The translations under genes were made by a program, and so were the position numbers. From Ruegeria sp. TM1040 (lineage in GTDB: Bacteria > Pseudomonadota > Alphaproteobacteria > Rhodobacterales > Rhodobacteraceae), in assembly GCF_000014065.1 (NCBI RefSeq), contig NC_008043.1:749001-813000 (forward strand): DNA of 64,000 nucleotides, in the 5' to 3' direction. The notes under the pieces were generated by a model. The model saw only the letters and a program-made list of their open reading frames with translations. It was not told where the DNA came from and searched no databases. Positions 21,332-34,810 of the stretch are shown piece by piece; the stretch's first letter is position 1, and the number at the start of each line of letters is the position of its first letter.

Positions 21332-22564
21332 TCAGCGCACGATCACGCCCTCTTTGATCCAGGCATCAAACTGTGCCAGCACCGCATTGGTGAATTCGGC
21401 GTCATTGATGTGGCAGTCGAGCTCCTGCAGTTGCGCGTTCTCCGGAACTCCGCGACGCATCTCATCGCAAAAGGCCCGAAGCCCTTCCGCATCATGCAGA
21501 TCGCCGCCGGCGCGGTCCCATTCGTTGCAGCCCGCGCGGGGCAAGAACACCGTGACTGGTGCTGAGGCCCGGGCAAGCTTGTTGCACATCTCTTGCGCGA
21601 CGCGCTGTCGTTCTCGCGCATCAAGCATGGCCGACGTCAGCAAGCGGTTATGGGCGTGGCACTCCCGTCCGCGCAGTTGCTCCGGCGCACCCTGCCAGCC
21701 GACAAAATCCACAAGGTCATAGCATCCCGGCGCAATCAGTTGCGGGACACCCGCATGCCCGGCGTGTGTCATGCGCCCCTCGCCCGCCGACAAGCCGCCA
21801 AAGAGATGATTGCTCACTTCTTGAGGGGCAAAATCCATCACCGCCGCAAAAGCGCCCTCCCCCGCAAGGCTCTCAAAGGCGCGCCCGCCCATGCCGGTGG
21901 CATGAAAGACCGCCACATCAAATCCGCGCTTCTCAAGCTCTGGTTTAAGCGTCACCATGTAGCGCAGCACCGTCTTTCCAAAGGAGGTCATGCCCACCAT
22001 CGGACGCTCAAAACTGGGCGCCTCCACCGCGCGCGCGGCGCCCAGAACGGCACCCGCAGCCTGACTGAGCGATGCTTTGCAGATGTCGTTCAATCCATAG
22101 AGCCCCCCGGCCCAAAGGATCATCTGCAGATCCGCCGGGATGCGCTCCGGTGGCAGCAACGGCGAGAATGCCACGGTCGAGACGACATATTTGGGCACCC
22201 CCAAAGGCAACGCAGCACAGAGGTCGAGCGCAAGATCGGTGCCCATGGTGCCCCCGAGCACGATCACGCCATGGATGCGCCCCGCGCGCCACAGATCCAG
22301 CGCAAGCCTGGCCGAGCCCGCCCCCATGATTTGCATCGCGGTATTTTCATCTCCGCTGTCGATGGCCCTCTGAATGGAACTGCCCGCCGCCTCGGCAACG
22401 TCGTGTTTTGAGACATCCGTGGGCAGTTTGGGCTCGCCCAACACACTCACATCCATGCTGAGCACCTGACCGCCCTGCCCCCGGATCACTTCCGATAAAT
22501 AAGACAGCTCATCATCCTTGGTATCCCAGGTCCCGGCCACAAGGATCGTCTTTTCACCGTTCAT
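21332..22564 (-). CDS. Tm-1-like/UPF0261 ATP-binding protein
   Basis: A 410-residue protein of the UPF0261/Tm-1-like family. ILVAGTWDTKDDELSYL at the N-terminus and GLGGTMGTDLALDL-like loop (VLGGTMGTDLA) are typical of the family; FGKTVLRYMV and VFHATGMGGRAFESL mark the C-terminal domain. The plant relative binds ATP and inhibits viral replicase; bacterial members have no settled activity. It is the last gene after tctCBA and aldehyde dehydrogenase, 101 bases beyond the dehydrogenase stop, so a role in the same catabolic unit is likely. Confidence 0.85.
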   Translation of the reverse strand: MNGEKTILVAGTWDTKDDELSYLSEVIRGQGGQVLSMDVSVLGEPKLPTDVSKHDVAEAAGSSIQRAIDSGDENTAMQIMGAGSARLALDLWRAGRIHGVIVLGGTMGTDLALDLCAALPLGVPKYVVSTVAFSPLLPPERIPADLQMILWAGGLYGLNDICKASLSQAAGAVLGAARAVEAPSFERPMVGMTSFGKTVLRYMVTLKPELEKRGFDVAVFHATGMGGRAFESLAGEGAFAAVMDFAPQEVSNHLFGGLSAGEGRMTHAGHAGVPQLIAPGCYDLVDFVGWQGAPEQLRGRECHAHNRLLTSAMLDARERQRVAQEMCNKLARASAPVTVFLPRAGCNEWDRAGGDLHDAEGLRAFCDEMRRGVPENAQLQELDCHINDAEFTNAVLAQFDAWIKEGVIVR

Positions 22565-22665: not shown

Positions 22666-24150
22666 TCAAAGCTGAATCCAGGCCGTTTTCAGATCGACGT
22701 ATTTCTCGAGCGCATGCAGGGATTTGTCGTGACCGTTACCGGATTGGCCAACCCCACCCAAAGGCACCGTATTATCAGCCCCGCCATAGGTGTTCACATG
22801 CACGACGCCTGCGCGGATACCGGCCACGCAGCGATGCGCGCGCGACAGATCCTGCGACCAGACCCCTGCCGCAAGCCCATAGTCGGTGGCATTGGCAAGC
22901 CGAAGTGCTTCGTCTTCGCTCTCAAACGCCGTGACCGAGAGCACCGGACCAAACACCTCCTTTTGAAAGAGGTCCGCGTCCTGCGTGACACCCGCCACAA
23001 CGGTCGGCGCCATGTAGGTTCCACCCGTCTCGGAGAGGATGCGACCGCCCCCGCAGAGCACCTCGCCCCCTTGGGCGGCGGCACGCTCCACGTGGGCAAG
23101 GTTTGCTGCAAGCTGGGTCTCTGAATTCACGGCGCCAATCTGAGTGTTCATATCCAGGGGGTCGCCAACCCGAAGCGCCTGTGCATGGGCCACGACCCGG
23201 GCCACAAATTCCTCGTGGATGGAGGCCTCCACCAAAAGGCGCGATCCTGCGACACAGACCTGACCGGAATTGCGGAAAATCCCCATGGCCGAGACCTTGG
23301 CCACGTGATCGAGATCCTTTGCATCCGCAAAAACGATATTGGGGGACTTGCCTCCCAGCTCGAGGTAGCAGCGCTTGAGGTTGGACCGCGCCGAGGCCAC
23401 CAGCAGGCGCCGCCCCGTCGCGCCAGAACCGGTAAAGACCATCACGTCCACATCCATATGCTCCGATAGGGCGGCGCCAGTCACGGCGCCCGGCCCGGTC
23501 ACTACATTCAACACCCCATCCGGCAGGCCGCAGTCTGCGCAGATCTCAGCAAGACGTAGCAGCGACAGCGAGGCAGTCTCAGCCGGCTTCAGCACCACGG
23601 AATTGCCCATCGCGAGCGCGGGCGCGAGCTTCCAGGCGCCGATCATCAGCGGAAAGTTCCATGGCACGATTGCGCCCACGACACCAACGGGCGCGCGATG
23701 CACGAGTCCCAGAACGTCCGGCGCGGTGGGCGCGACCTCGCCTGCGACTTTGTCCAGCGCCTCGGCGTAGTAGCGGAAAGTCCCTGCAGCAGATCCGGCC
23801 TCGGCCTTCAACGCCATATTGAACTCGGTGCCATTGTCACGCACGCCAAGCACCGTGAGCGCCAGCGCCTCGGCCTCGATCTTGTCGGCAATCCGGTGCA
23901 GAACCTTTTTGCGCGCCGCCGGGGCCAGCCCTGACCAGCGACCGTCGTCAAAAGCGCGCCGGGCCGAGACCACCGCGCGGTCGACATCCTTCGCCGTAGC
24001 AGTCGCCAATGTGGTCAGAACAGATCCGTCAATCGGCGAAGTAGTCTCGCATGGCGCGCCCGAACCTTCTTGCCATGTTCCTTCAAGAAAGAGGCTCTGC
24101 GGCGCAACAGCAGTGCTCCGAAGCGTGTTGATGAGGTCTTGGTTTGCCAT
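22666..24150 (-). CDS. NAD(P)-dependent aldehyde dehydrogenase
   Basis: A 494-residue aldehyde dehydrogenase of the betaine/gamma-aminobutyraldehyde-like class. GAIVPWNFPLMIG, LELGGKSPNIVFADA (catalytic Glu), NSGQVCVAGSRLLV (catalytic Cys) and EVFGPVLSV are all present. It would oxidise a semialdehyde to a carboxylate. The ATG at 24150 has AAGGAGG four bases before it. Its first 45 codons overlap the 3' end of tctA in another frame, far more than other overlaps in this window. Together with the nearby class III aminotransferase it suggests an amine-to-acid pathway. Confidence 0.92.
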   Translation of the reverse strand: MANQDLINTLRSTAVAPQSLFLEGTWQEGSGAPCETTSPIDGSVLTTLATATAKDVDRAVVSARRAFDDGRWSGLAPAARKKVLHRIADKIEAEALALTVLGVRDNGTEFNMALKAEAGSAAGTFRYYAEALDKVAGEVAPTAPDVLGLVHRAPVGVVGAIVPWNFPLMIGAWKLAPALAMGNSVVLKPAETASLSLLRLAEICADCGLPDGVLNVVTGPGAVTGAALSEHMDVDVMVFTGSGATGRRLLVASARSNLKRCYLELGGKSPNIVFADAKDLDHVAKVSAMGIFRNSGQVCVAGSRLLVEASIHEEFVARVVAHAQALRVGDPLDMNTQIGAVNSETQLAANLAHVERAAAQGGEVLCGGGRILSETGGTYMAPTVVAGVTQDADLFQKEVFGPVLSVTAFESEDEALRLANATDYGLAAGVWSQDLSRAHRCVAGIRAGVVHVNTYGGADNTVPLGGVGQSGNGHDKSLHALEKYVDLKTAWIQL

Positions 24151-25634
24151 TCGGCCTCCTTCAGCTCGCGCGCCTCTTTCACGATACGAAAGAGATGCGC
24201 CGCAAGCACGATCAAGATGAGGGAAAACAGGATGAACGCCACCGGGCGATCAATGAAATCAAAGGGAGTCTTTACCCGTGCCATGGCGGCGCGCAGTTTC
24301 ACTTCCATGATGCCGCCCAGAACCATGCCGAGGATGATCGGCACGGCGGGCAGCTGCAACCGCTTGAGGATAAAGCCAAAGAGCCCAAACCCGGCTGCCA
24401 TGAAGCAATCGGTGACCGAGTTGCGCAGCGAATAGACCCCCACAAAGCTGAGCGTGAGAATGCCGACACCCAGGAAGCGGTTGGGAATGCGCACCACTTG
24501 AACCAGCGATTTGGTGGCCGCCAGCAGAAAGACAAGCACAAGCACATTGAGGATCAAGAGCGCCAGATAAAGCGCGACGACAAAATCCATCTGGTTTTGG
24601 AACAGCCCCGGCCCTGGCACGACATTGTGGACGTAAAAGACCGAAAGCATCATCGCTGTCAGCGCCTCGCCCGGAATGCCAAGCGCGAGAAGCGGCACCA
24701 TGGCAGCAGCGGGCACGGCGTTATTGGCGGTTTCGGCAGCGATCAGCCCCTCAGAGGAGCCATTGCCAAAATCCTGCGGCCGTTTTGAGGTCTTTTGCGC
24801 GTAGGTATAGGACATGAACTGCGCCGTGAACTCACCCACGCCCGGGATCATTCCCATCACCACGCCAAAGCCCGCCGAAACAGACGCCACCCGCGGGTGG
24901 CGCGCCAGCTCGCGCAGACCTTGAAACACTCCACCGCGCAGCTTGGTGAGGCGGATTTTCTCATCCTCATCGGTCAAGAGGATAAAGGCCTGCGAGATCG
25001 CAAAAAGCCCCAGCACCACCACGATGAGATTGATGCCTGACCCCAGCGCATCCGTTCCAAAGGTGTAGCGTTGGGTGTATTTCACCGGCTCCATGCCGAT
25101 CGTATTGAGAAAGATCCCAAGGCACGCGAGCGCCCCGGCTATCAGGGCTTGGCCCCGGTGTGCGACCACCACCAGAATGAGTCCGAGAAGGGCTGCGAGA
25201 AAAATTTCGCGCGCGCCAAAGAGCGGCGCCACCTTGGCCAGTACGGGCGCAAAGAGGATCAGACAGATCACCGAAAAGATGCCGCCAAAGAAGCTCGCGG
25301 AATAGGCAAGGCTAAGGGCGCGCCGAGGCTCGCCGCGGGCCGTCATCGGGTAGCCGTCATAGGTCGTCAGCGCGTTGACCGCAGTGCCGGGCGTATTGAT
25401 CAGGATCGCCGGGATCGCACCGCCATACATGGAGGACCCATAGATCCCCAAGAGCACCGTGAGCCCCACGATCGGATCGAGCGAAAAGGTCGCAGGTAGC
25501 AGGATCGCGATGGCAACGGCCGGGCCTACGCCGGGGATCGCCCCGATCAGTACCCCGCCAACAGAACCTGCCAGCAGCGCCAGCGCCACGTCCCAGCGCA
25601 TCAGGATTTCAAGGGCGGAGAGGATCAGGTCCAT
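24015..25634 (-). CDS. tctA: Tripartite tricarboxylate transporter large subunit TctA
   Basis: A 539-residue polytopic permease. IGAIPGVGPAVAIAILLPATF and the repeated MGMIPGVGEFTAQFMSYTYA (in part IPGVGEFTAQFMSY) are the conserved TctA motifs, with YGGAIPAILINTPGT between. About 12 membrane segments end near residue 485. The last 42 residues (from TKTSSTRFGALLL, rich in Arg and Leu) are encoded across the start of the aldehyde dehydrogenase gene and look unlike TctA. A single A-to-G change in an ancestral ATGA overlap would have turned the stop into Trp; see the finding. Confidence 0.93.
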   Translation of the reverse strand: MDLILSALEILMRWDVALALLAGSVGGVLIGAIPGVGPAVAIAILLPATFSLDPIVGLTVLLGIYGSSMYGGAIPAILINTPGTAVNALTTYDGYPMTARGEPRRALSLAYSASFFGGIFSVICLILFAPVLAKVAPLFGAREIFLAALLGLILVVVAHRGQALIAGALACLGIFLNTIGMEPVKYTQRYTFGTDALGSGINLIVVVLGLFAISQAFILLTDEDEKIRLTKLRGGVFQGLRELARHPRVASVSAGFGVVMGMIPGVGEFTAQFMSYTYAQKTSKRPQDFGNGSSEGLIAAETANNAVPAAAMVPLLALGIPGEALTAMMLSVFYVHNVVPGPGLFQNQMDFVVALYLALLILNVLVLVFLLAATKSLVQVVRIPNRFLGVGILTLSFVGVYSLRNSVTDCFMAAGFGLFGFILKRLQLPAVPIILGMVLGGIMEVKLRAAMARVKTPFDFIDRPVAFILFSLILIVLAAHLFRIVKEARELKEAEWQTKTSSTRFGALLLRRRASFLKEHGKKVRARHARLLRRLTDLF

Positions 25635-25661: not shown

Positions 25662-26192
25662 TTAGAGATAGAGGATGGCAAAGCTGCGCCATGCATCGGG
25701 AAGATATTCATAAAGGGCGGCGCCGGGGATGCGCACGGCGAGGACACCTTTGAAAAAGAGGACGATGAACACCGCAAACCCGGCGCTGATCGCCATCATC
25801 TGCGGGCTGCGATAGCCCATCCGCCAGGCGAGCAGCGGCACGAACACCAGCGTCACCGGCAGATAGCCAGCAAGCGGCACAAGCACGACATACCCCATGA
25901 ACCAGAGCATATACTCCAGAGCGGCAGCCCAACGCTGGGCTTCGCGCAGATCACTGCGGTCAATGCGGCGAAACGGCAGCCTCCACAGGTGCAATGCGGT
26001 AAAGACCACCATGCCCCCAACGCCCACAGCGGGCCAGAACCGGGGCTGCGCGAAAAAATCGGTCTTCCTGACCCATGCGGTTTGGGTCCCGATCTGGGAC
26101 AAAAGCATTACGGCCAAGGCCAGAAAGGACAGAACAAAAAGAAGCTGCCCCCGGCGCGGGCCGATGAATCTGCGTTCACGTTCGCTTTGCAT
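25662..26192 (-). CDS. tctB: Tripartite tricarboxylate transporter small subunit TctB
   Basis: A 176-residue membrane protein with about four membrane segments, the TctB/DUF1468 pattern; LLFVLSFLALAVMLL and YMLWFMGYVVLVPLAGYLP are two of them. The start at 26192 (MQSERERRFIGPRRGQ) gives the normal length; the open frame before it runs into the tctC gap and is not family-like. It sits 27 bases before tctA and about 100 after tctC, the usual TTT gene order. Confidence 0.88.
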   Translation of the reverse strand: MQSERERRFIGPRRGQLLFVLSFLALAVMLLSQIGTQTAWVRKTDFFAQPRFWPAVGVGGMVVFTALHLWRLPFRRIDRSDLREAQRWAAALEYMLWFMGYVVLVPLAGYLPVTLVFVPLLAWRMGYRSPQMMAISAGFAVFIVLFFKGVLAVRIPGAALYEYLPDAWRSFAILYL

Positions 26193-26295
26193 GAATGGTC
26201 TCTGGCTGGGAAAGCGGTCTGGGTGAGGAAGGCATGTGGCGGGCCGAAAAATCCGCCGGGCCATCAAAGACGACACCGGCGGAAGGTCGGGGAGG

Positions 26296-27240
26296 TTACT
26301 CCAGGGTTTCGCCAATCCGTGCCATGGTCTCGATATCGCTGGCCACGCGGGCCGCGCTTTCATCGGCGTTCTGCCAATAGACCAAGGCACCCGTTTCTGC
26401 AGCAACAGCCTGCGCGCGTTCAGAGAAGACGGTTTCCTGCGCCACCTCGATGATCTTGTCGCGCACGTCTTGCGGCGTGTCCTTGGTTACAAAAAGCCCG
26501 TTCCAGAGCGCAATGTCGAGATCCGGGTTCAGCTCTCCGATGGCAGGCGCATCCGGCACCAGCGGGATGCGGTCGTCGGTGATCGAGACCAGAACCTTGA
26601 TGTCGTCGAGGCAGGGCAGGATCAGCTGAAGCGTGGTGTTGATCACATCCGCATCGCCCGAGGCCAGTGTATTGCAATCCAGCGCATCAAAAGCTGCATC
26701 GGCGCCCCATTCAAAACCTGCGGATTTGGCAAAGGCTTTGGTCACTTGGGTCGGCGTCAGTACATCGCCAAAGTGGCCCAGCACCACCTCGTTGTCCTGT
26801 GCGTATTCAGCAAGCTCCGCCATGGAGCTATAGGGCGAATCCCCCGAGGTCGCGATCACGAAGGGATAGGTCAGGAAAATGCCAAGCGGGTCGAATTTGG
26901 CTGGTGTCAGGGGTGGAATGTCGATCTGATGACCCATGACCGGAACGCCAATCACAAAGGAGCCAACGGTGTAGCCATCAGCCGGCGCATTGGCGACCTC
27001 GATTGCGCCGGGAAAGGGTCCGCCGCCGCCGCCGGGTTTGTTCACAACGGCCGCTGCAACGCCGTATTTCTCCTGGAAGTCCTCGGCGATCATGCGGGTC
27101 AAGACGTCCTCAAGATCGCCCGGCGGCCATGGCACGATAAAGTTCACGGGTTTTTCCGGGTAGTCCGCAGCTGCGGCCCCTGCTGTCAGTGCAAGGCCGG
27201 CTGCGGCCACACATCCCTTGAGTACAGTTGTCATGGTCAT
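26296..27240 (-). CDS. tctC: TTT-system solute-binding protein TctC
   Basis: A 314-residue periplasmic binding protein of the Bug/TctC family. A signal peptide (MTMTTVLKGCVAAAGLALTA ... AAA) precedes YPEKPVNFIVPWPPGDLEDVL, the family start. The ligand loop is VNKPGGGGGPFPGAIEVANAPADGYTVG (in part PADGYTVG). These proteins bind carboxylates; the ligand cannot be read from sequence. The ATG at 27240 was picked for the signal peptide. It is the first gene of the tctCBA-dehydrogenase operon, divergent from the IclR regulator. Confidence 0.92.
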   Translation of the reverse strand: MTMTTVLKGCVAAAGLALTAGAAAADYPEKPVNFIVPWPPGDLEDVLTRMIAEDFQEKYGVAAAVVNKPGGGGGPFPGAIEVANAPADGYTVGSFVIGVPVMGHQIDIPPLTPAKFDPLGIFLTYPFVIATSGDSPYSSMAELAEYAQDNEVVLGHFGDVLTPTQVTKAFAKSAGFEWGADAAFDALDCNTLASGDADVINTTLQLILPCLDDIKVLVSITDDRIPLVPDAPAIGELNPDLDIALWNGLFVTKDTPQDVRDKIIEVAQETVFSERAQAVAAETGALVYWQNADESAARVASDIETMARIGETLE

Positions 27241-27386: not shown

Positions 27387-28235
27387 ATGAAAGCCACCGG
27401 ATCATACCGGATCGCGCGTGGTCGAGTTTCAGGCAAATCAGGACCGAGCGCATCAATGGGAACCGTATCTAAAGCTCTGACTTTGCTGACTTACTTCAAT
27501 CACGGGCGCTTGGAGATCGGCCTGAGTGACCTCACTCGACTGTCGGGAATGAACAAGGCTACCGTCTATCGGTTGATGAGCGAACTGCAGGAAGCGGGAT
27601 TTGTTGAACAGGTCGAAGGCGCACGGTCGTATCGGCTTGGACCACAGGTTTTGCGGCTCGCCGCCCTGCGCGAAGCCAGCGTGCCGATTCTGTCGGCCTC
27701 TCGCCGGGTGCTGCGAGAGCTTTCCGAGGACACCGGCGAGACCACCCATTTGTCGCTCCTTCAGGGCGAGCAGCTTGCGTCACTCAGCCATGCCTATTCC
27801 TCGCGCAATGCGACCAAGGTCATGATGGAGGACGCGGAGGTCCTGACCTTTCACGGCACGGCCTCGGGGCTGGCGGTGCTGGCCTATTCAGAGCCGAGCT
27901 TTGTGGACGCGGTGCTCGCCGCGCCCCTGACCGCACGCACGCCGCAAACCCAGACCGATCCCGCCGCAATCCGGGCCGAGATCGCCGAGGTTCGCCGCAC
28001 GGGGCTGGCGCAATCAATCGGCGGTTTCGAAGCCGAGGTGCATTCGCATGCGGTGCCGATCTTTGGCCCGGATCGCGCCGTTTTGGGGGCTCTGGCCGTG
28101 GCTGCGCCGACCTCGCGGATGACCCCAGATCAGAAACGAACGATCCCGCCCGCCCTGCGCGCGGCGGGCCTCAGCCTCACCGAGCGAATTGGCGGCGCCT
28201 GCCCGCCGGAATTTCCCACCGACATCGCGGCCTGA
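27387..28235 (+). CDS. IclR-family transcription regulator
   Basis: A 282-residue regulator. The winged helix begins after residue 24 (TVSKALTLLTYF, then LSGMNKATVYRLMSELQEAGF), followed by the IclR effector domain (VLRELSEDTGETTHLSLLQGEQ to AVAAPTSRMTP). ATG 27387 is used; an in-frame ATG at 27456 immediately before the DNA-binding domain is also possible, and neither has a strong ribosome site. It is divergent from tctC and 29 bases before the aminotransferase, so it likely controls both transcripts in response to the imported substrate. Confidence 0.9.
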   Translation: MKATGSYRIARGRVSGKSGPSASMGTVSKALTLLTYFNHGRLEIGLSDLTRLSGMNKATVYRLMSELQEAGFVEQVEGARSYRLGPQVLRLAALREASVPILSASRRVLRELSEDTGETTHLSLLQGEQLASLSHAYSSRNATKVMMEDAEVLTFHGTASGLAVLAYSEPSFVDAVLAAPLTARTPQTQTDPAAIRAEIAEVRRTGLAQSIGGFEAEVHSHAVPIFGPDRAVLGALAVAAPTSRMTPDQKRTIPPALRAAGLSLTERIGGACPPEFPTDIAA

Positions 28236-28264: not shown

Positions 28265-29632
28265 ATGACCGCACATCAGCCCGACGCCAATTTCCTCAAG
28301 GAACATAACGCCCGCAGCCTCTGGCATCCCATGGCGCATCCCGGCGACAGCCTTGCCAACCCACCCACCATCGTGACCGGTGCCTCTGGCGTGCGGATCA
28401 AGGATGTGGATGGGCATGAGGTGGTCGACGCGGTTGGCGGGCTCTGGAATGTGAACCTTGGATTTTCCTGCCAGCCCGTGAAAGACGCGATCGCCGCGCA
28501 GCTCGATGTTCTGCCTTACTATTCGATCTTTCGCGGCACCACCAACGACCAGGTGATCCAACTCGCAGAAGAGCTGCGAGACTTTTTTGCGCCCGACGGC
28601 CTGAGCCGTGCGTTCTTTACCTCCGGTGGTTCGGATTCGGTAGAAACCGCCCTGCGGCTGGCGCGCCAATACCACAAGGTGCGCGGAGAGCCTGCCCGGG
28701 TGAAATACCTGAGCCTCAAGAAAGGCTATCACGGCACCCATTTCGGCGGGGCATCGGTCAATGGCAATGCCAATTTTCGCACCGCTTATGAGCCGCTATT
28801 GGCGGGCTGTCACCATATCCCCGCACCCTATACCTATCGCAATCCGTTCAACGAGACCGATCCGGAACGCCTGGCGCAGTTGTGTCTTGCGGCGCTGGAG
28901 GATGAGATCGCCTTTCAGGGCGCGGGCACCATTGCGGCCTTCATCATGGAGCCCATTCTGGGCGCAGGCGGCGTGATCCCCCCACACGAGAGTTTCATGC
29001 CCGGCGTGGCGGAGATCTGTCGCAGGCATGGGATCCTGCTGATTGCAGATGAGGTCATCACCGCCTTTGGCCGCACCGGGTCCTGGAGCGGCTCGCGCCA
29101 TTGGGGCGTGCAGCCTGACATGATGTGTACCGCCAAGGCGATCACCAACGGCTATTTCCCGTTTGGGGCGCTGATGCTTTCCGAGCGGCTGGTGGAGGTG
29201 TTTGAAAAGGACGACACCGGCAAGGCCGCGATTGGGCATGGCTATACCTATTCCGGCCATCCTGTTGGCGCGGCGGCGGCGCTGGCTTGCCTCGCGGAGA
29301 CCAAACGATTGAATGTGCCAGAGAATGCCGCGGCGCGGGGGGCGCAGATTTTTGAGGGTCTTCAAGATCTCGCGGCCCGCTATGACCTGATCGGCGACGT
29401 GCGGGGAGGCCATGGTTTGATGTCTGCGCTGGAACTTGTCAGTGACCGGGCCACCAAGGCGGCGGTGGACAAGAAAGTCATCAACCGCCTTCAGGAAGTC
29501 GCTTATCAGAATGGAGCCATGGTGCGCGTGAGTGGCCCGAATATCATTCTCTCGCCGCCACTTGTGCTCACTGAGGCGGACGCCGCGCAGATCCTGTCGG
29601 CCCTCGACGCAGGCTTTGCGGCAGTGAACTGA
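28265..29632 (+). CDS. Class III (omega) aminotransferase
   Basis: A 455-residue PLP-dependent aminotransferase. YHGTHFGGASVNG, ADEVITAFGRTG and the lysine-bearing CTAKAITNGYFPFGA are the fold-type I class III motifs. Members act on omega-amino acids, diamines, beta-alanine or taurine, usually with pyruvate as acceptor, giving an aldehyde. With the divergent aldehyde dehydrogenase and tctCBA it suggests uptake of an amino-carboxylate, transamination and oxidation. It shares its transcript with the IclR gene. The exact substrate is not determined. Confidence 0.92.
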   Translation: MTAHQPDANFLKEHNARSLWHPMAHPGDSLANPPTIVTGASGVRIKDVDGHEVVDAVGGLWNVNLGFSCQPVKDAIAAQLDVLPYYSIFRGTTNDQVIQLAEELRDFFAPDGLSRAFFTSGGSDSVETALRLARQYHKVRGEPARVKYLSLKKGYHGTHFGGASVNGNANFRTAYEPLLAGCHHIPAPYTYRNPFNETDPERLAQLCLAALEDEIAFQGAGTIAAFIMEPILGAGGVIPPHESFMPGVAEICRRHGILLIADEVITAFGRTGSWSGSRHWGVQPDMMCTAKAITNGYFPFGALMLSERLVEVFEKDDTGKAAIGHGYTYSGHPVGAAAALACLAETKRLNVPENAAARGAQIFEGLQDLAARYDLIGDVRGGHGLMSALELVSDRATKAAVDKKVINRLQEVAYQNGAMVRVSGPNIILSPPLVLTEADAAQILSALDAGFAAVN

Positions 29633-29781: not shown

Positions 29782-30528
29782 TCAGGAGGTCTCTATATTA
29801 CGGGTGCAGGTCCAAACCGTACGGGTTGAAACATCGTCGACTTTTTCAAAGCCTGCCTCGCGCAGGATGGTCTTGCAGCGCCGCATGCCTTTGACCTCAT
29901 AGGCCTCGGGGTGGAATTCAATCACGATGGCGCGAAACGCAGAGAGATCGAGCGCCTCCAGCAGCGCCAGTTCGCCGCCTTCGATGTCCATCACCAGCAC
30001 GGTGGGCTTGAATTCAGCAATGACTTCGGCCGCATCCACCGTTGGGATCTCCACAACCCGCGAGGGGCGCCCGGCCTCATTGAGGAGCGAGGAGCCAAGG
30101 AAGCTATTGCGCAGATGAAACGCCATCGTCTGTGGCCGGTCGGTGCCCGCGAACAGGACCTGATTGCGCAACTCGACCTGCGAGCCGAGATCGTTCATGT
30201 CATGCAGGGCGTGGATCACGGGCACCAATTCCGGGTTTGCTTCGAATGACAGGACCTTTTGAGGCTTGGCGTTCACCGCGATGACCGCACCGACAATCCC
30301 GAGCCCTGCGCCGACCTCAAGCACGCGGTCCTCCTCGCACACCACATGAAGCGCGCCGGCGATTTCTTGTCCCTCGTAGCGTGCGGCGTTGATCCGCTTG
30401 ATCCGGGTTTCCGTCAAAAAACTGGACTGCGGCACCTTCACGCCAAGGCAGGTGGCCGCAATCTCTTGGGAGACAACCGGGAGCGCATCAGACGCCATTT
30501 TGTGTGACGCCAGTTTTGTTTCAGACAT
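29782..30528 (-). CDS. FkbM-family SAM-dependent methyltransferase
   Basis: A 248-residue methyltransferase. Motif I is VLEVGAGLGIVGAVIA, followed by the acidic strand end in VLSFEANPELVP; VLVMDIEGGELALLEALDL is the hallmark FkbM segment. FkbM proteins O-methylate small molecules or sugars. The ATG at 30528 (MSETKLASHKMAS) gives the family length. It is 139 bases downstream of the glutamine-synthetase-like gene on the same strand, so it may belong to the P450 unit, though the gap leaves that open. Confidence 0.85.
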   Translation of the reverse strand: MSETKLASHKMASDALPVVSQEIAATCLGVKVPQSSFLTETRIKRINAARYEGQEIAGALHVVCEEDRVLEVGAGLGIVGAVIAVNAKPQKVLSFEANPELVPVIHALHDMNDLGSQVELRNQVLFAGTDRPQTMAFHLRNSFLGSSLLNEAGRPSRVVEIPTVDAAEVIAEFKPTVLVMDIEGGELALLEALDLSAFRAIVIEFHPEAYEVKGMRRCKTILREAGFEKVDDVSTRTVWTCTRNIETS

Positions 30529-30667
30529 GTTCTGCTCGTTTCGCCTGAGTTGATTATCGCGCCAGTCTGGCGTGGCCCTGCAGGAAAAAGCAAGCGCAGG
30601 CCATCGTTGGCCTGCACGATGCCGATGAGCTGTGTCTTCGTTCAGACAATCCGGCCTAGCATTCCGG

Positions 30668-31957
30668 TCAGACAAAATGCACGTAGAAGTCCCGCAGCGC
30701 ATCGCCTTCGAGGTCGCGGGTTTTGCGGACCTCTTTCTGCTTCATGTAGACATGATTGGCGACCAGATCCGGCCCCACCGCCTCCGCAAGGGAGGTATCC
30801 TTTTCCAGATCTGCGACCGCGCCCTTGAGCGTCATTGCGGTGCTTTCGCGCGTGTCCGTGCGGTCAAACCCATCGCCGGTTTCCATCGGTCCCAGCGCAT
30901 AGCCGCGCTCCACGCCAAGGCGCGCCGCCTGCAAGAGCGCCGCCACCGTGGTATAGGGATTGGAGGAGGCATCCGCCATTCGGTGTTCAAGCCGCGCCTT
31001 CGCCCCGCCTTCGGAGCTGATCCGAGTGGTGACATTGCGATGATCGCCGCCCCAGTTCTGCCAAAAGCCCGACAGACTCCCCGGTTGCAGACGCATGTAG
31101 CTGTTGGCGGTGGGCGCGATCAGACCGGCCAAGCCCTTGTGATGATGCAGAAACCCGGCAAGGCAGCCGCGCGCGAGATCATTCATGTGATCCGGCCCGC
31201 CCCGAGGCCCCGACGAAAGCGCATTTCCCCCCGCCTCATCCGTGAACGAGAGGTTCACATGCATGCCTGACCCCCCTGCCTGCGCGACCGGCTTGGGCAT
31301 GAACGTCAGAACGATCCCGTACTCCAGCGCGATCTCACGCGCCATCAAGCGAAACAGCACGATGTCATCCACCGCCTTTACAGCGTCGTCAAAGGTCAGC
31401 GTATATTCAAACTGAGGGCTGTCGAACTCCGCCGTAATCATGTCGAGAGAGAAGCCCATCTCATCCGCCATCGCCCAGATCCGGTCATTGAACCGTAATG
31501 GATCTGCAAACGGCCCGGTGCCGTAGACCACTCCGCCGGGCGCATCATAGGGGACAAGCCGCCCGTATTCGTCGGGCTGCAGGGCAAAAGCCTCAAGTTC
31601 GATACCAATTTTTGGAGAAAGCCCCTTTCCCTGCCAATCCGCAACGGCGCGTTTCAACGCCCCTCTGGGACAAAGCGTCAGCAGCTCGCCCTCGTCGTCA
31701 TAAAGATCGCCCAAGACGATTTTGGTCGAGGCGTGCCAACTGTCGCGAATGTCATCGTGACGCCAGCGCAGCGTCATGTCTGGTAGGCCCTGTTTGACCA
31801 TCGACCCCGGCGCGTCCAGCAGGTCGCGGTCATAATGGGTGCCAAACACAGAGCGGCAGAACCGGGTTTCATCGTCGCCGATCTTTGAATGCGGCAGGTA
31901 TTTCCCGCGCATGATACTGAGATGGTCGCAGAATAACGCGCGCAGGCGAGTTTTCAT
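30668..31957 (-). CDS. Glutamine-synthetase-like ligase (gamma-glutamylamine type)
   Basis: A 429-residue glutamine synthetase fold protein. IGIELEAFALQPDEYG, GGSGMHVNLSF and ISSEGGAKARLEHRMADASS hold the metal and ATP residues; NSYMRLQPGSLSGFWQNWGG replaces the NSYKRLVPG-type loop of housekeeping GlnA, as in enzymes that join glutamate to amines. No GlnB or adenylylation-region tyrosine motif is seen. It lies between a P450 and an FkbM methyltransferase, so I infer it forms a gamma-glutamyl amide of an amine substrate. It could still be a polyamine (PuuA-type) or another glutamylation enzyme. Confidence 0.82.
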   Translation of the reverse strand: MKTRLRALFCDHLSIMRGKYLPHSKIGDDETRFCRSVFGTHYDRDLLDAPGSMVKQGLPDMTLRWRHDDIRDSWHASTKIVLGDLYDDEGELLTLCPRGALKRAVADWQGKGLSPKIGIELEAFALQPDEYGRLVPYDAPGGVVYGTGPFADPLRFNDRIWAMADEMGFSLDMITAEFDSPQFEYTLTFDDAVKAVDDIVLFRLMAREIALEYGIVLTFMPKPVAQAGGSGMHVNLSFTDEAGGNALSSGPRGGPDHMNDLARGCLAGFLHHHKGLAGLIAPTANSYMRLQPGSLSGFWQNWGGDHRNVTTRISSEGGAKARLEHRMADASSNPYTTVAALLQAARLGVERGYALGPMETGDGFDRTDTRESTAMTLKGAVADLEKDTSLAEAVGPDLVANHVYMKQKEVRKTRDLEGDALRDFYVHFV

Positions 31958-32028
31958 GGGGCTTCCTTTCCTGTTGGTGGCCTGCGCATCTTTGGCGTGC
32001 GTCTTGACCGAAATTGATCCCCAACGGA

Positions 32029-32104
32029 GGGCAGTGGGCGACCTCGAGTGGGAGCGGAGCGCCCTCCCGTGGGGGGAGTCGGGCGCTGTCCGGGCGACCG
32101 CCCG
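32029..32104 (+). repeat. Two-hairpin intergenic repeat, copy B
   Basis: Starts GGGCAGTGGGCGACCTC, keeps the GCGCCCTCCCGTGGGGG core and ends with the trailing CGGGC-GACC-GCCCG hairpin. About 57 of 66 bases match copy A. It lies between the P450 and the glutamine-synthetase-like gene, which run on the other strand. Confidence 0.75.
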
Positions 32105-32123
32105 AACGGGTCTTCTGTTGAGC

Positions 32124-33383
32124 CTACGCGGCTTCTACCCGCACGGGCAATTCCTTGATGCCGCCGACAAAGTTCGACCGCAGGAATTTGTGGGCACCAT
32201 TGGGTTCGATGGATTTGATCCGCTTGGAGAGTTCCTGAAACAGAACCGTGACCTCAAGCCGTGCGAGCCACATGCCCAGGCAGACATGCGGGCCGAACTG
32301 GCCGAAAGACAGGTGCCGGTTGGGATTGCGCATCAGGTTCACCCGAAACGGGTCGTCAAAATAGCTGTCGTCGCGATTGGCAGAGGCAAACCAATAGAGC
32401 ACCTTATCGCCTTCGCGGATGGTCTTGCCATGCATCTCGACATCCTGCGTCGCCGTGCGGCGGAAATAGAGCGCAGGCGTCGCCCAGCGGATGATCTCAT
32501 CCGCCGCCGTCTCCCAAATCTCCCCGCCCGCCTGCATCTGCGCCAGAAGCTCCGGCTGATGACACATCGCCTGAATGCCAGCCGCGATGGAGTAACGCGT
32601 GGTGTCGTTGCCCGCAGCCACCAAGAGGCAGAAGAAATTGCGAAACTCGGTTTCGGTAATGACCGATCCGTCTCGGGCCGGCTGCAGAATCATGTTGAGC
32701 ACGCCGGAGGTGTCACCTGCCCTCTCTTTGGCTTCCATCAACTCCTTGGCGTAGATGTATAATTCTGCACCCGCCGGAGAGTTGAAGGGCATCATGCGGA
32801 ATTCATCCGTGTCCATTTTGTCCAGCACATGCGAGGTGAAATCGGGGTCAGTATTCGCAATGAGCGCATCCCCCTTCTCCACCAGCCACGGCAGATCCGC
32901 GTCCGGCAAGCCGACGACGCGCCCGAGCATCCGCATGGGCAACTGCCTGGCGATCTCCTTGGTGGCGTCAAAGCTGCCTTTTGCCAAGGCCTCGTCGAGG
33001 ATCTCCGCACAAAGGTCGCGAATGTCCGCCTCGTATTGCGCCATGGTGGTCTTGGAGAACGCCTTCAGGAGCTTCATGCGCACCTGAGAATGTTCGGGCG
33101 GGTCGGTTTCCTGAAAAGTGCGCCGCGCGAGGTATTCCTCGTAGGTCTGATCCTCCATGCGGATGCCGCGCGCCGAGGAAAAGATCTCTGTGTTCTTGTT
33201 CATCTTGGTGATGTCGTCATAGCGCGTGACCGACCAGAAATTCTCGCCATCGCTGTATTCGGTCCAATGCAGCGGATCATCACGCCGGAGCCGGGCAAAG
33301 GTGTTGTGCGGCGCGCCATTGGCAAAGGCGTCATGGCTCGACAGATCCGCATATCCGTCATCGGTCGGGGTCCAGATCGTCAT
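32124..33383 (-). CDS. Cytochrome P450
   Basis: A 419-residue bacterial class I-type P450 with no membrane anchor. The oxygen-binding I-helix is LLVAAGNDTTRYS, the ExxR pair is Glu296/Arg299, and the heme thiolate is Cys368 in LSFGQFGPHVCLGMW. The ATG at 33383 (MTIWTPTDDGYADLS) is chosen; the reading frame is open further into the divergent promoter region but not family-like. No ferredoxin or reductase gene is adjacent. Its neighbours are a glutamine-synthetase-like ligase on the same strand and a class I amidotransferase diverging from it, recalling amine-oxidation clusters. Confidence 0.95.
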   Translation of the reverse strand: MTIWTPTDDGYADLSSHDAFANGAPHNTFARLRRDDPLHWTEYSDGENFWSVTRYDDITKMNKNTEIFSSARGIRMEDQTYEEYLARRTFQETDPPEHSQVRMKLLKAFSKTTMAQYEADIRDLCAEILDEALAKGSFDATKEIARQLPMRMLGRVVGLPDADLPWLVEKGDALIANTDPDFTSHVLDKMDTDEFRMMPFNSPAGAELYIYAKELMEAKERAGDTSGVLNMILQPARDGSVITETEFRNFFCLLVAAGNDTTRYSIAAGIQAMCHQPELLAQMQAGGEIWETAADEIIRWATPALYFRRTATQDVEMHGKTIREGDKVLYWFASANRDDSYFDDPFRVNLMRNPNRHLSFGQFGPHVCLGMWLARLEVTVLFQELSKRIKSIEPNGAHKFLRSNFVGGIKELPVRVEAA

Positions 33384-33410
33384 GGCGGGGCTTCCTTTGG
33401 ACTGCTTCAC

Positions 33411-33421
33411 ATGTATACTAT
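33411..33421. promoter_or_regulatory. Possible GntR operator between P450 and amidotransferase genes
   Basis: ATGTATACTAT surrounds the palindrome GTATAC in the 73-base divergent gap. FCD-type GntR regulators often bind ATnGTATACnAT-like sites. The gap is AT-rich compared with its surroundings. Confidence 0.35.
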
Positions 33422-33456
33422 TAAGAACTGTAATTATGCATATGGGAAGCCTGAAC

Positions 33457-34194
33457 ATGCGCATTGCGATTTTAATGACCAACACGGACGAAAGCGCCTT
33501 TGCCCACAGGTACCCGAAGGATGGTGAGAAATTCACCGCCTTGATCCAGATGGCGCGGCCAGAGTGGCACTGCGATGTCTATGCAGTGAAGGATGGAGTT
33601 TTCCCAGAAAACATAAGGTGTTACGATGGTGCTATGATCACCGGAAGCCCCGCTTCCACCCGGTCAGGGGCGCATTGGGTTGCACAGCTTTTGGATCTGA
33701 TCCGGCAGATGCACGCGATGCGGCTGCCGCTTTTTGGGGCCTGTTTTGGCCATCAGGCGATTGCGCTCGCGCTAGGTGGTCGTGTCGACAATCTGCCCGG
33801 TGGCTGGGTGCATGGCCGCACCGAGAATCATCTGGTCGCACGCCCGGAGTGGGCTTCAGATCTGCCGGATGTGGTCTCCATCTACGGGTCGCATGTGGAA
33901 TATGTCTGCACCCTGCCCAAAGGCGCGCAACCGCTGATGTCCCGCGCGGACCATACCACCGGCTTTATGATTGGAGATCACATAGCCACCAGCCAGCACC
34001 ACCCGGAAATGACTCATGCGTTCATCTGCGCCCTGACCGAAGAACTGCGGCAGAAAATGGGACCTGAGGTCTATGCAAGGGCGCAAGAGAGCCTTGCGCA
34101 AGAGGTGGATCAGCCCGCACTGGCGGAGGCGATCGCACGGTTTTTTGAGACCGCAAGCGCTAGCCGAGGGCGGCCAGCAGATCCATCACCGTGA
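33457..34194 (+). CDS. Class I glutamine amidotransferase-like hydrolase
   Basis: A 245-residue GATase1-domain protein. The nucleophile is Cys96 in LFGACFGHQAI and the His/Glu pair is His182/Glu184 in SQHHPEM, so the triad is complete. It resembles stand-alone GMP-synthase-like amidotransferases and the amidotransferase-like hydrolases of aniline clusters. The ATG at 33457 (MRIAILMTNTDES) has GGGAAG upstream; earlier in-frame ATGs at 33436 and 33442 lack a ribosome site. Divergent from the P450, it may hydrolyse a gamma-glutamyl amide after oxidation. Its end overlaps the convergent GntR gene by 35 bases. Confidence 0.88.
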   Translation: MRIAILMTNTDESAFAHRYPKDGEKFTALIQMARPEWHCDVYAVKDGVFPENIRCYDGAMITGSPASTRSGAHWVAQLLDLIRQMHAMRLPLFGACFGHQAIALALGGRVDNLPGGWVHGRTENHLVARPEWASDLPDVVSIYGSHVEYVCTLPKGAQPLMSRADHTTGFMIGDHIATSQHHPEMTHAFICALTEELRQKMGPEVYARAQESLAQEVDQPALAEAIARFFETASASRGRPADPSP

Positions 34195-34810
34195 CCTGAT
34201 CAAACTGCACATGCGCGCGCATTGCGGCCTCTGCCCCATTGCGATCATGCGAGAGGATCAGCTCTGCAATCTCGCGATGCTCCAGCGCGGATTGGGCGAT
34301 GGCACCAGGATAGCGATAGCGCGCACGATAATAGGCCATGAGCTTGCGGGCATTGGTCTTGATCATCTCGACCAGGAACGGATTGGCCGCGCCGAGCGCC
34401 ACTGTCTCATGAAAACGCAGATTGAGCTGATAATACCCATCAGGATCAGCGTCGCCCTTCGAGCTGGCGTGGTCTGCGCAGTCCTTCGTAATTCGCTCGA
34501 GTTCGGCGCGCAAATCCGGCGATATTCTTCGCGCCGCAAGCCCTGCGGCCTGCCCTTCCAGTTGCGCATGCACCTCTTGGATGGCGAGGAATTCTTCGAG
34601 CGTGGGTTTGAACAGAACTGCGCCTTTGCGCGGCAGTCGGCGGATCAGGCCGGTAGCCTCCAGTTGGATATAGGCCTCCCGGATCGGGGTGCGTGAGACG
34701 CCGTGATGGGAGGCCAGGGCGGCTTCGTCGATCTCTTGGCCCGGCGCGAGGCGGCCAGCGTCGATGTCCGCAAGGATTGCGCCAATCAGTGTCTCCGTCT
34801 GCCCCGCCAT
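34160..34810 (-). CDS. GntR-family regulator, FCD domain
   Basis: A 216-residue regulator. The N-terminal winged helix ([25 protein letters not shown], in part [15 protein letters not shown]) is FadR-type, and the C-terminal FCD domain shows the metal-binding histidines in NLRFHETV and ALEHREIAE. It lies at the end of the P450 region, convergent with the amidotransferase. It may control that region through the palindrome at 33411, or the nearby paa genes; the first is favoured because the gene overlaps the amidotransferase. Confidence 0.85.

Follow-up and report, generated by a model that had tools for sequence, protein, structure and literature searches.

A conserved cytochrome P450, glutamine synthetase-like ligase and amidotransferase unit of marine roseobacters and its possible role in amine breakdown

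Described glutamylation pathways and the Ruegeria locus

The sequence of glutamylation, oxidation by a cytochrome P450 and deglutamylation is already known from isopropylamine breakdown. Here, we analysed a locus of Ruegeria sp. TM1040 that may follow a similar logic and that lies within a stretch of 64,000 nucleotides (positions 749,001 to 813,000 of the 822 kb contig NC_008043.1; this whole stretch is called the window below). It comprises genes for a glutamine synthetase (GS)-like protein, a P450, a class I glutamine amidotransferase-like hydrolase and a GntR regulator. These four genes, reported with their coordinates in a preliminary description of the same DNA, were all found present and intact (Table 1), whereas the unit turned out to be larger than stated there and its tie to the hpa (homoprotocatechuate meta-cleavage) genes had been missed. 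The same description was aware of no earlier system made up of exactly these genes, which has to be corrected because Paenarthrobacter aurescens TC1 has genes for an amidotransferase, a P450, a ferredoxin, a reductase and IpuC, which stand in a row in the pTC1 record. PMC6776027 assigns IpuC, a P450 system and a glutamine amidotransferase of A. aurescens TC1 to isopropylamine, calling the proteins "predicted" and the hydrolysis "postulated".

The Ipu pathway (pTC1 and Pseudomonas sp. KIE171) resembles our locus in the clustering of IpuC, a P450 with its ferredoxin and an amidotransferase-type hydrolase, and in the succession of glutamylation, oxidation and release. However, its GS and P450 are only 29% and 26% identical to the window proteins, its ferredoxin did not align with those found at relatives of the locus, and TC1 has a ferredoxin reductase in the cluster. 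The hydrolase assigned in TC1 (PMC6776027), pTC10065, is encoded next to the P450 and is of the PuuD type and gave no real alignment with the window amidotransferase, whereas pTC10062, a class I amidotransferase encoded four genes before the P450, is 28% identical to it over 170 residues. Hence, the hydrolases may be closer to each other than that assignment suggests. The 30 kb of TC1 viewed carry no annotation of a Tct or hpa gene.

A GS-like ligase and a glutamine amidotransferase-like enzyme are also combined with an oxygenase in the AtdA (aniline) and NpaA (1-naphthylamine) systems, which yield a catechol-type diol and then cleave the ring (PMC11335346). The oxygenase there is a Rieske-type dioxygenase, while a P450 is found here, and an aminotransferase accompanies the present genes. 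Among the annotated recurrent neighbour families of our loci no Rieske dioxygenase was noticed, whereby no Rieske model was searched. The putrescine (Puu) pathway of E. coli likewise uses a ligase, an oxidation step, an aldehyde dehydrogenase (ALDH), a gamma-glutamyl hydrolase and an aminotransferase. It differs by having an oxidase in the place of the P450, and the window GS and ALDH stay below the curated cut-offs for PuuA and PuuC.

Two plasmids carry looser relatives. Adjacent genes for GS, amidotransferase and P450 are present in Sagittula stellata, another roseobacter (locus L172, 8669-11976), where the P450 is 40% and the amidotransferase about 30% identical to ours; in contrast, the GS is only 25% identical over the matched part, the gene order differs and a TRAP transporter lies beside. 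Genes for salicylyl-CoA 5-hydroxylase and an aromatic-ring-hydroxylating dioxygenase are situated near this triad. In Novosphingobium sp. EMRT-2 (L170), the P450 and GS genes (56% and 47% identical) are adjacent, with genes for ALDHs and for a 2Fe-2S protein in the vicinity. Genes for catechol 1,2-dioxygenase and FAH-family proteins lie next to this cluster, and no amidotransferase is annotated in the stretch viewed. A description of the gene set analysed here was not found in the open-licence PubMed Central literature. The present branch of the three-enzyme logic and its aromatic partner pathway look new.

Conservation of the unit and its association with hpa genes

The P450, the GS-like protein and the amidotransferase are conserved as a unit. 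We searched 295 genomes of this family, close to one for each genus, and accepted matches at E <= 1e-120 for the P450, E <= 1e-90 for the GS-like protein and E <= 1e-50 for the amidotransferase. At these thresholds 56, 58 and 51 genomes, respectively, contained a match. The P450 never occurred without the GS-like gene (both in 56 genomes), all three were found together in 46, and the amidotransferase lacked the GS-like gene in four, so that the conserved co-occurrence which had been proposed as a check is borne out. The triad is also present in Oricola and Ahrensia. In named records, the closest GS-like genes are 91-96% identical, mostly from Tritonibacter and related roseobacters. Within its own genus the unit is patchy, with the GS-like gene in 8 of 18 genomes including that of TM1040. 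Individual genomes deviate: approximately 24 kb separate P450 and GS in G186, and a different GS (48%) lies near the P450 in G154. Furthermore, eight genomes form a divergent branch with adjacent P450 (50-58% identical) and GS (42-48%) genes. This branch is hidden from the amidotransferase counts by the thresholds; it has no match above them, yet a 31-35% identical amidotransferase is encoded beside the P450 in seven of the eight loci, and the eighth locus (L070) stops just beyond the P450.

The catalytic residues of all three enzymes are intact. The GS-like gene starts with the ATG at 31957, which is preceded by a good ribosome-binding site, and Pfam Gln-synt_C matched with 239 bits on a longer frame containing it. 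In the aligned rows, the protein keeps the GS motifs that bind metal, ATP and glutamate. The Glu position of PGFEAP in the GlnA of the same genome is occupied by Leu295, a position that holds Leu in 99 and Met in 9 of the 108 aligned rows; IpuC of TC1 has Trp there. The GS-like character proposed earlier is supported: the motifs are kept, and the PGFEAP glutamate is gone as in IpuC. Glutamyl-organic-amine synthases (GoaS) were described as having lost GS catalytic residues including that of the Glu flap, which is numbered Glu357 there (PMC11335346). The window protein agrees with this class in having a GS catalytic domain with its motifs and no flap glutamate. The flap glutamate is presumably Glu327, unlike the printed Glu357, and residue 357 would be the glutamate of the RxE motif, which is kept here as Glu324. 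The protein missed the NCBIfam equivalog cut-offs for glutamate-ammonia ligase type III (177.7 of 469.6 bits) and type I (154.9 of 429.15 bits) as well as the one for gamma-glutamylputrescine synthetase PuuA (NF045547; 165.6 of 650 bits).

The P450 is listed with a GTG start at 33536; the ATG at 33383 is favoured by the MT[IV]W start of its relatives and by a ribosome-binding site. It carries the heme Cys in FGQFGPHVCLG together with the motifs AGNDTT and EIIR. In an alignment of 100 rows (99 called proteins and the window reference), no variation occurs at Cys368, Gly258, Asp260, Thr261, Glu296 and Arg299. The nearest solved sequences are named CYP125MRCA, followed by CYP124 and CYP126; CYP125 and CYP124 are terminal-methyl hydroxylases of sterols and lipids. 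The amidotransferase begins with the ATG at 33457. A Pfam GATase match and the Cys96-His182-Glu184 triad, which was noted before and is invariant in 98 of 98 aligned rows, place it among class I glutamine amidotransferases. Among solved proteins, gamma-glutamyl peptidase 1 is its closest relative (E 3e-16), which fits the hydrolase function that had been suggested.

To describe the surroundings, we clustered the genes of 60 stretches taken from genomes of the family and of 80 loci in named records. From 141 loci, a stricter de-duplication dropped 16, leaving 125 distinct ones, 114 of them with a called P450 or GS; an earlier set of 128 still held a few duplicates, and loci cut by contig ends were kept. 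Genes were called heuristically from open reading frames and GC content by codon position, which sometimes picked antisense frames over P450, GS or amidotransferase, so that all locus counts are lower bounds. Among the 114 loci, GntR was found in 75, a class III aminotransferase cluster in 72, any Tct transporter gene in 72, an ALDH cluster in 67, IclR in 61, a 2Fe-2S ferredoxin in 54 and UPF0261 in 46, whereby the aminotransferase and ALDH clusters may include paralogues. The usual order is GntR, amidotransferase (divergent), P450, GS, ferredoxin, aminotransferase, IclR, TctC, TctB, TctA, ALDH and UPF0261, which we call the module. Other lineages show co-directional runs such as TctC-TctB-TctA-P450-GS-amidotransferase or TctB-TctA-TctC-amidotransferase-P450-GS, and single-strand runs of transporter, P450, GS and amidotransferase genes occur in L050, L051 and L057 and in L069, L071, L077 and L078. 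Such runs argue that the tripartite transporter is part of the pathway.

Among the markers that were tested across whole genomes, the hpa pathway associates most strongly with the module, ahead of the neighbouring paa (phenylacetyl-CoA) operon. HpaH (TIGR02312, E <= 1e-60) was detected in 54 of 58 genomes with the module versus 59 of 237 others (odds ratio 41, Fisher p 1.7e-22, genomes taken as independent), and at the curated cut-off in 50 of 58 versus 53 of 237 (p 1.7e-19). For paaA the numbers are 45 of 58 versus 96 of 237 (odds ratio 5, p 3.6e-7), and among the paaA-positive genomes HpaH is present in 43 of 45 with the module and in 38 of 96 without it. Moreover, 14 of the 114 loci have hpa core genes next to the module, whose placement varies: downstream of GS (L071, L073, L074), past GntR and a MarR gene (L122, L124, L130 and similarly L131), or as HpaD-G-(H)-I runs ahead of the amidotransferase (L144, L146). 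HpaI-like or decarboxylase genes occur in 26 of the 114. In the representative loci scanned, HpaD, HpaD_Fe and HpaH scored above their curated cut-offs and HpaF, HpaG and HpaI below. TM1040 itself has, elsewhere on the same contig, genes for HpaE, HpaD, a decarboxylase, HpaG-like, HpaH and HpaI-like proteins in a row, of which HpaE, HpaD and HpaH pass the curated cut-offs while HpaG and HpaI fail; the decarboxylase is nearest to DOPA/tyrosine decarboxylases.

A candidate route for arylethylamines and the alternatives

We consider it nearly an even call that the module serves the catabolism of an arylethylamine through temporary gamma-glutamylation and delivers its product to the hpa pathway. 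The GS-like ligase would join the gamma-carboxyl group of glutamate to the amine at the expense of ATP, the P450 would hydroxylate the gamma-glutamyl amide with electrons from a 2Fe-2S ferredoxin, and the class I amidotransferase would cut the gamma-glutamyl bond to give glutamate and the hydroxylated amine. The class III aminotransferase and then the ALDH would convert this amine via the aldehyde to an acid, most likely dihydroxyphenylacetate, which would enter the hpa meta-cleavage pathway. Given this acid, the substrate is most likely a phenolic arylethylamine such as tyramine, and the route might read tyramine, gamma-glutamyl-tyramine, gamma-glutamyl-dopamine, dopamine and homoprotocatechuate.

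A narrower form, in which tyramine is masked, ring-hydroxylated by the P450 to gamma-glutamyl-dopamine, unmasked, deaminated and oxidised, so that the P450 acts in the place of HpaBC, appears rather unlikely as a whole, if a real possibility. Tyramine could then come from uptake or from the aromatic-amino-acid-decarboxylase-like gene in the hpa run. HpaB was found neither in TM1040 nor in 50 other module genomes (51 of 58 without it), and it is present in 3 of 17 genomes or loci picked for having the module and hpa genes, a set in which G323 and L160 are the same assembly and G305, G187 and G074 are only 74-83% complete. The lack of HpaB had to be rejected as a discriminator, 46 of the 59 HpaH genomes without the module lacking it too. 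Hence, it is merely permissive and no proof that the P450 replaces HpaBC. Similarly, the decarboxylase was discarded as a module-specific gene, since 43 of these 59 genomes have it.

Several points weigh against the arylethylamine route. The sequences show that the genes are all there with intact catalytic residues, are conserved together and co-occur with hpa genes, and they lend support to the cycle, whereas each reaction, the order of the reactions and the substrate are inferred. The Fisher p value for HpaH comes from a test that is not tree-aware, four module genomes have no HpaH match, and hpa core genes adjoin the module in only 14 of the 114 loci, while paaA does so in 19 and fumarylacetoacetase in 10. 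The lack of HpaB is unspecific (association of module and HpaB, p 0.46), and the decarboxylase is common in HpaH genomes that lack the module as well (43 of 59, versus 53 of 58 module genomes; p 0.015). For the relative strain O3.65, which has the module in L091, two of seven homoprotocatechuate genes are reported (PMC5064897). Moreover, the clustered ferredoxin, encoded on the same strand directly after GS in 54 of 107 loci, is absent from the window and from the module of TM1040. As to the redox partner that was to be sought in the genome, the sole match to this ferredoxin, 43% identical, lies on a different contig. Finally, the nearest solved relative of the TctC-type binding protein is BugD, pointing to a carboxylate-type transporter that would be unexpected for tyramine; the ALDH is closest to KauB and gamma-glutamyl-gamma-aminobutyraldehyde dehydrogenase, with PuuC as best model (521 of 850 bits, below the curated cut-off), and would suit an aliphatic amine as well, as would the P450 with its nearness to CYP125 and CYP124.

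The transporter and the ALDH fit an arylethylamine less well, so that an aliphatic or amino-acid substrate is kept in consideration. In that case the same cycle would act on an aliphatic amine or omega-amino acid in a Puu-like manner, with the P450 replacing the oxidase PuuB: the P450 would oxidise the terminal carbon of gamma-Glu-NH-R-CH3, the PuuC/KauB-like ALDH would oxidise the gamma-glutamyl aldehyde, the amidotransferase would free the omega-amino acid and the aminotransferase would take off the nitrogen. The relatives of ALDH, P450 and binding protein just named and the isopropylamine precedent all speak for it, but it leaves the HpaH association (54 of 58 versus 59 of 237) and the several arrangements of hpa genes beside the module unexplained, and we judge it unlikely, if still a serious competitor. 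Distinctly less probable is that the P450 makes a vicinal amino alcohol, comparable to the conversion of gamma-Glu-isopropylamide to gamma-Glu-alaninol, from which a kinase and a phospho-lyase-like enzyme would form an aldehyde. Suited to this conversion would be a pair of genes, an APH-family kinase-like one and a second class III aminotransferase-like one, that can be likened to hydroxylysine kinase and its phospho-lyase, but this pair occurs in only 10 of the 114 loci and is absent from the module of the window.

The position of paaA, which lies divergent from gntR in the window and beside the module in 19 of the 114 loci, and its enrichment in module genomes (p 3.6e-7) would agree with a module that chiefly feeds the paa operon, for example from phenethylamine. 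However, the odds ratio of 5 compares with 41 for HpaH, no strong site of the operator-like motif described below was seen at paa in the window, and phenylacetate needs no ring hydroxylation, which leaves the P450 without a clear role; we regard this reading as quite improbable. Hardly any weight remains for a set of unrelated neighbours. The mixed strands with only two regulators and the patchy distribution in the own genus (8 of 18) could be quoted in its favour, but the conservation across dozens of genera already contradicts it, as do the co-directional runs elsewhere.

If the arylethylamine route is true, it would identify a source of carbon and nitrogen that is used in the sea and would extend the combination of gamma-glutamyl masking and a P450 from isopropylamine to aromatic amines; with the P450 in the place of HpaBC, it would be a previously undescribed route for an aromatic biogenic amine in marine Rhodobacteraceae. 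In any case, a P450-GS-amidotransferase unit that is widespread in marine roseobacters (58 of the 295 genomes have the GS) is now placed in a testable pathway and tied to a pathway of ring cleavage; HpaB, the hydroxylase through which the latter is usually entered, was not found in 51 of the 58 genomes.

Regulation, neighbouring genes and minor observations

The P450 and amidotransferase genes are divergent with 73 bp between their starts, the GS-like gene lies downstream of the P450 gene on the same strand, and the 3' ends of the amidotransferase gene and gntR overlap by 35 bp (Table 1). A 30-bp motif was learned from 94 upstream regions and scored in those same regions, where it exceeds 8 in 78. 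Its only strong site in the window, between the two divergent genes, scores 31.1, the next one 8.9. Over the earlier 128 loci there are 181 hits with a score of at least 9 (both strands counted), compared to 3 in 799,000 shuffled bases; 131 of them are close to P450 and/or amidotransferase starts alone and 12 to gntR alone, 30 have no called start nearby and 8 lie elsewhere. The hpa stretch of TM1040 (L168) reaches a best score of 4.3, and the window contains no second strong site, at paa or elsewhere, so that a regulatory connection of the motif to hpa or paa was rejected. The 30-bp element is probably the operator of GntR, which would control the divergent P450-GS/amidotransferase promoter.

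Table 1. Features of the locus, with positions counted from the first nucleotide of the window.
Feature	Position	Strand	Characteristics
GS-like gene, probable gamma-glutamyl-amine ligase, 429 aa	30668..31957	-	Pfam Gln-synt_C
Cytochrome P450, 419 aa	32124..33383	-	heme Cys, ExxR, acid-alcohol pair
Conserved operator-like element, 30 bp	33413..33442	-	between amidotransferase and P450 genes
Class I glutamine-amidotransferase-like hydrolase, probable gamma-glutamyl amide hydrolase, 245 aa	33457..34194	+	Pfam GATase, Cys-His-Glu triad
GntR/FCD regulator	34160..34810	-	helix-turn-helix and FCD domain
FkbM-type methyltransferase gene	29782-30702		at the position of the ferredoxin gene in many relatives
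Class III aminotransferase (PRK07481 subfamily)	28265..29632	+	nearest solved relative omega-transaminase (5lh9)
IclR-family regulator	27387..28235	+	
TctC-type solute-binding protein	26296..27240	-	Pfam TctC; start deduced, listed open reading frame begins at 27456
TctB small membrane subunit	25662..26363	-	Pfam TctB; start uncertain
TctA large membrane subunit	24015..25634	-	Pfam TctA
Aldehyde dehydrogenase, PuuC/KauB-like	22666..24150	-	
UPF0261 family protein	21332..22564	-	

The frames of tctA and the ALDH lie on one strand and share 136 bp (24015-24150), and the match positions of relatives (e.g. L027, L031) suggest an equally long overlap there. The FkbM-type methyltransferase gene was called in 21 of the 125 distinct loci, some of which (e.g. 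L032) also have the ferredoxin. At the usual place of UPF0261, the kinase-like gene and the second aminotransferase-like gene are found in L097, L116, L146, L162 and L163. Several loci (L035, L132, L149, L150, L155 and others) carry genes for fumarylacetoacetase, a FAD monooxygenase and a metallo-hydrolase-like protein upstream of the module, and a homogentisate dioxygenase gene is cut by the locus edge in L149; this fumarylacetoacetase-bearing branch hints at a homogentisate variant. A sulfatase/PehA-like hydrolase gene occurs in 18 of the 125 loci (L093, L101, L105, L107 and others) and in 15 of these adjoins gntR or is one gene off.

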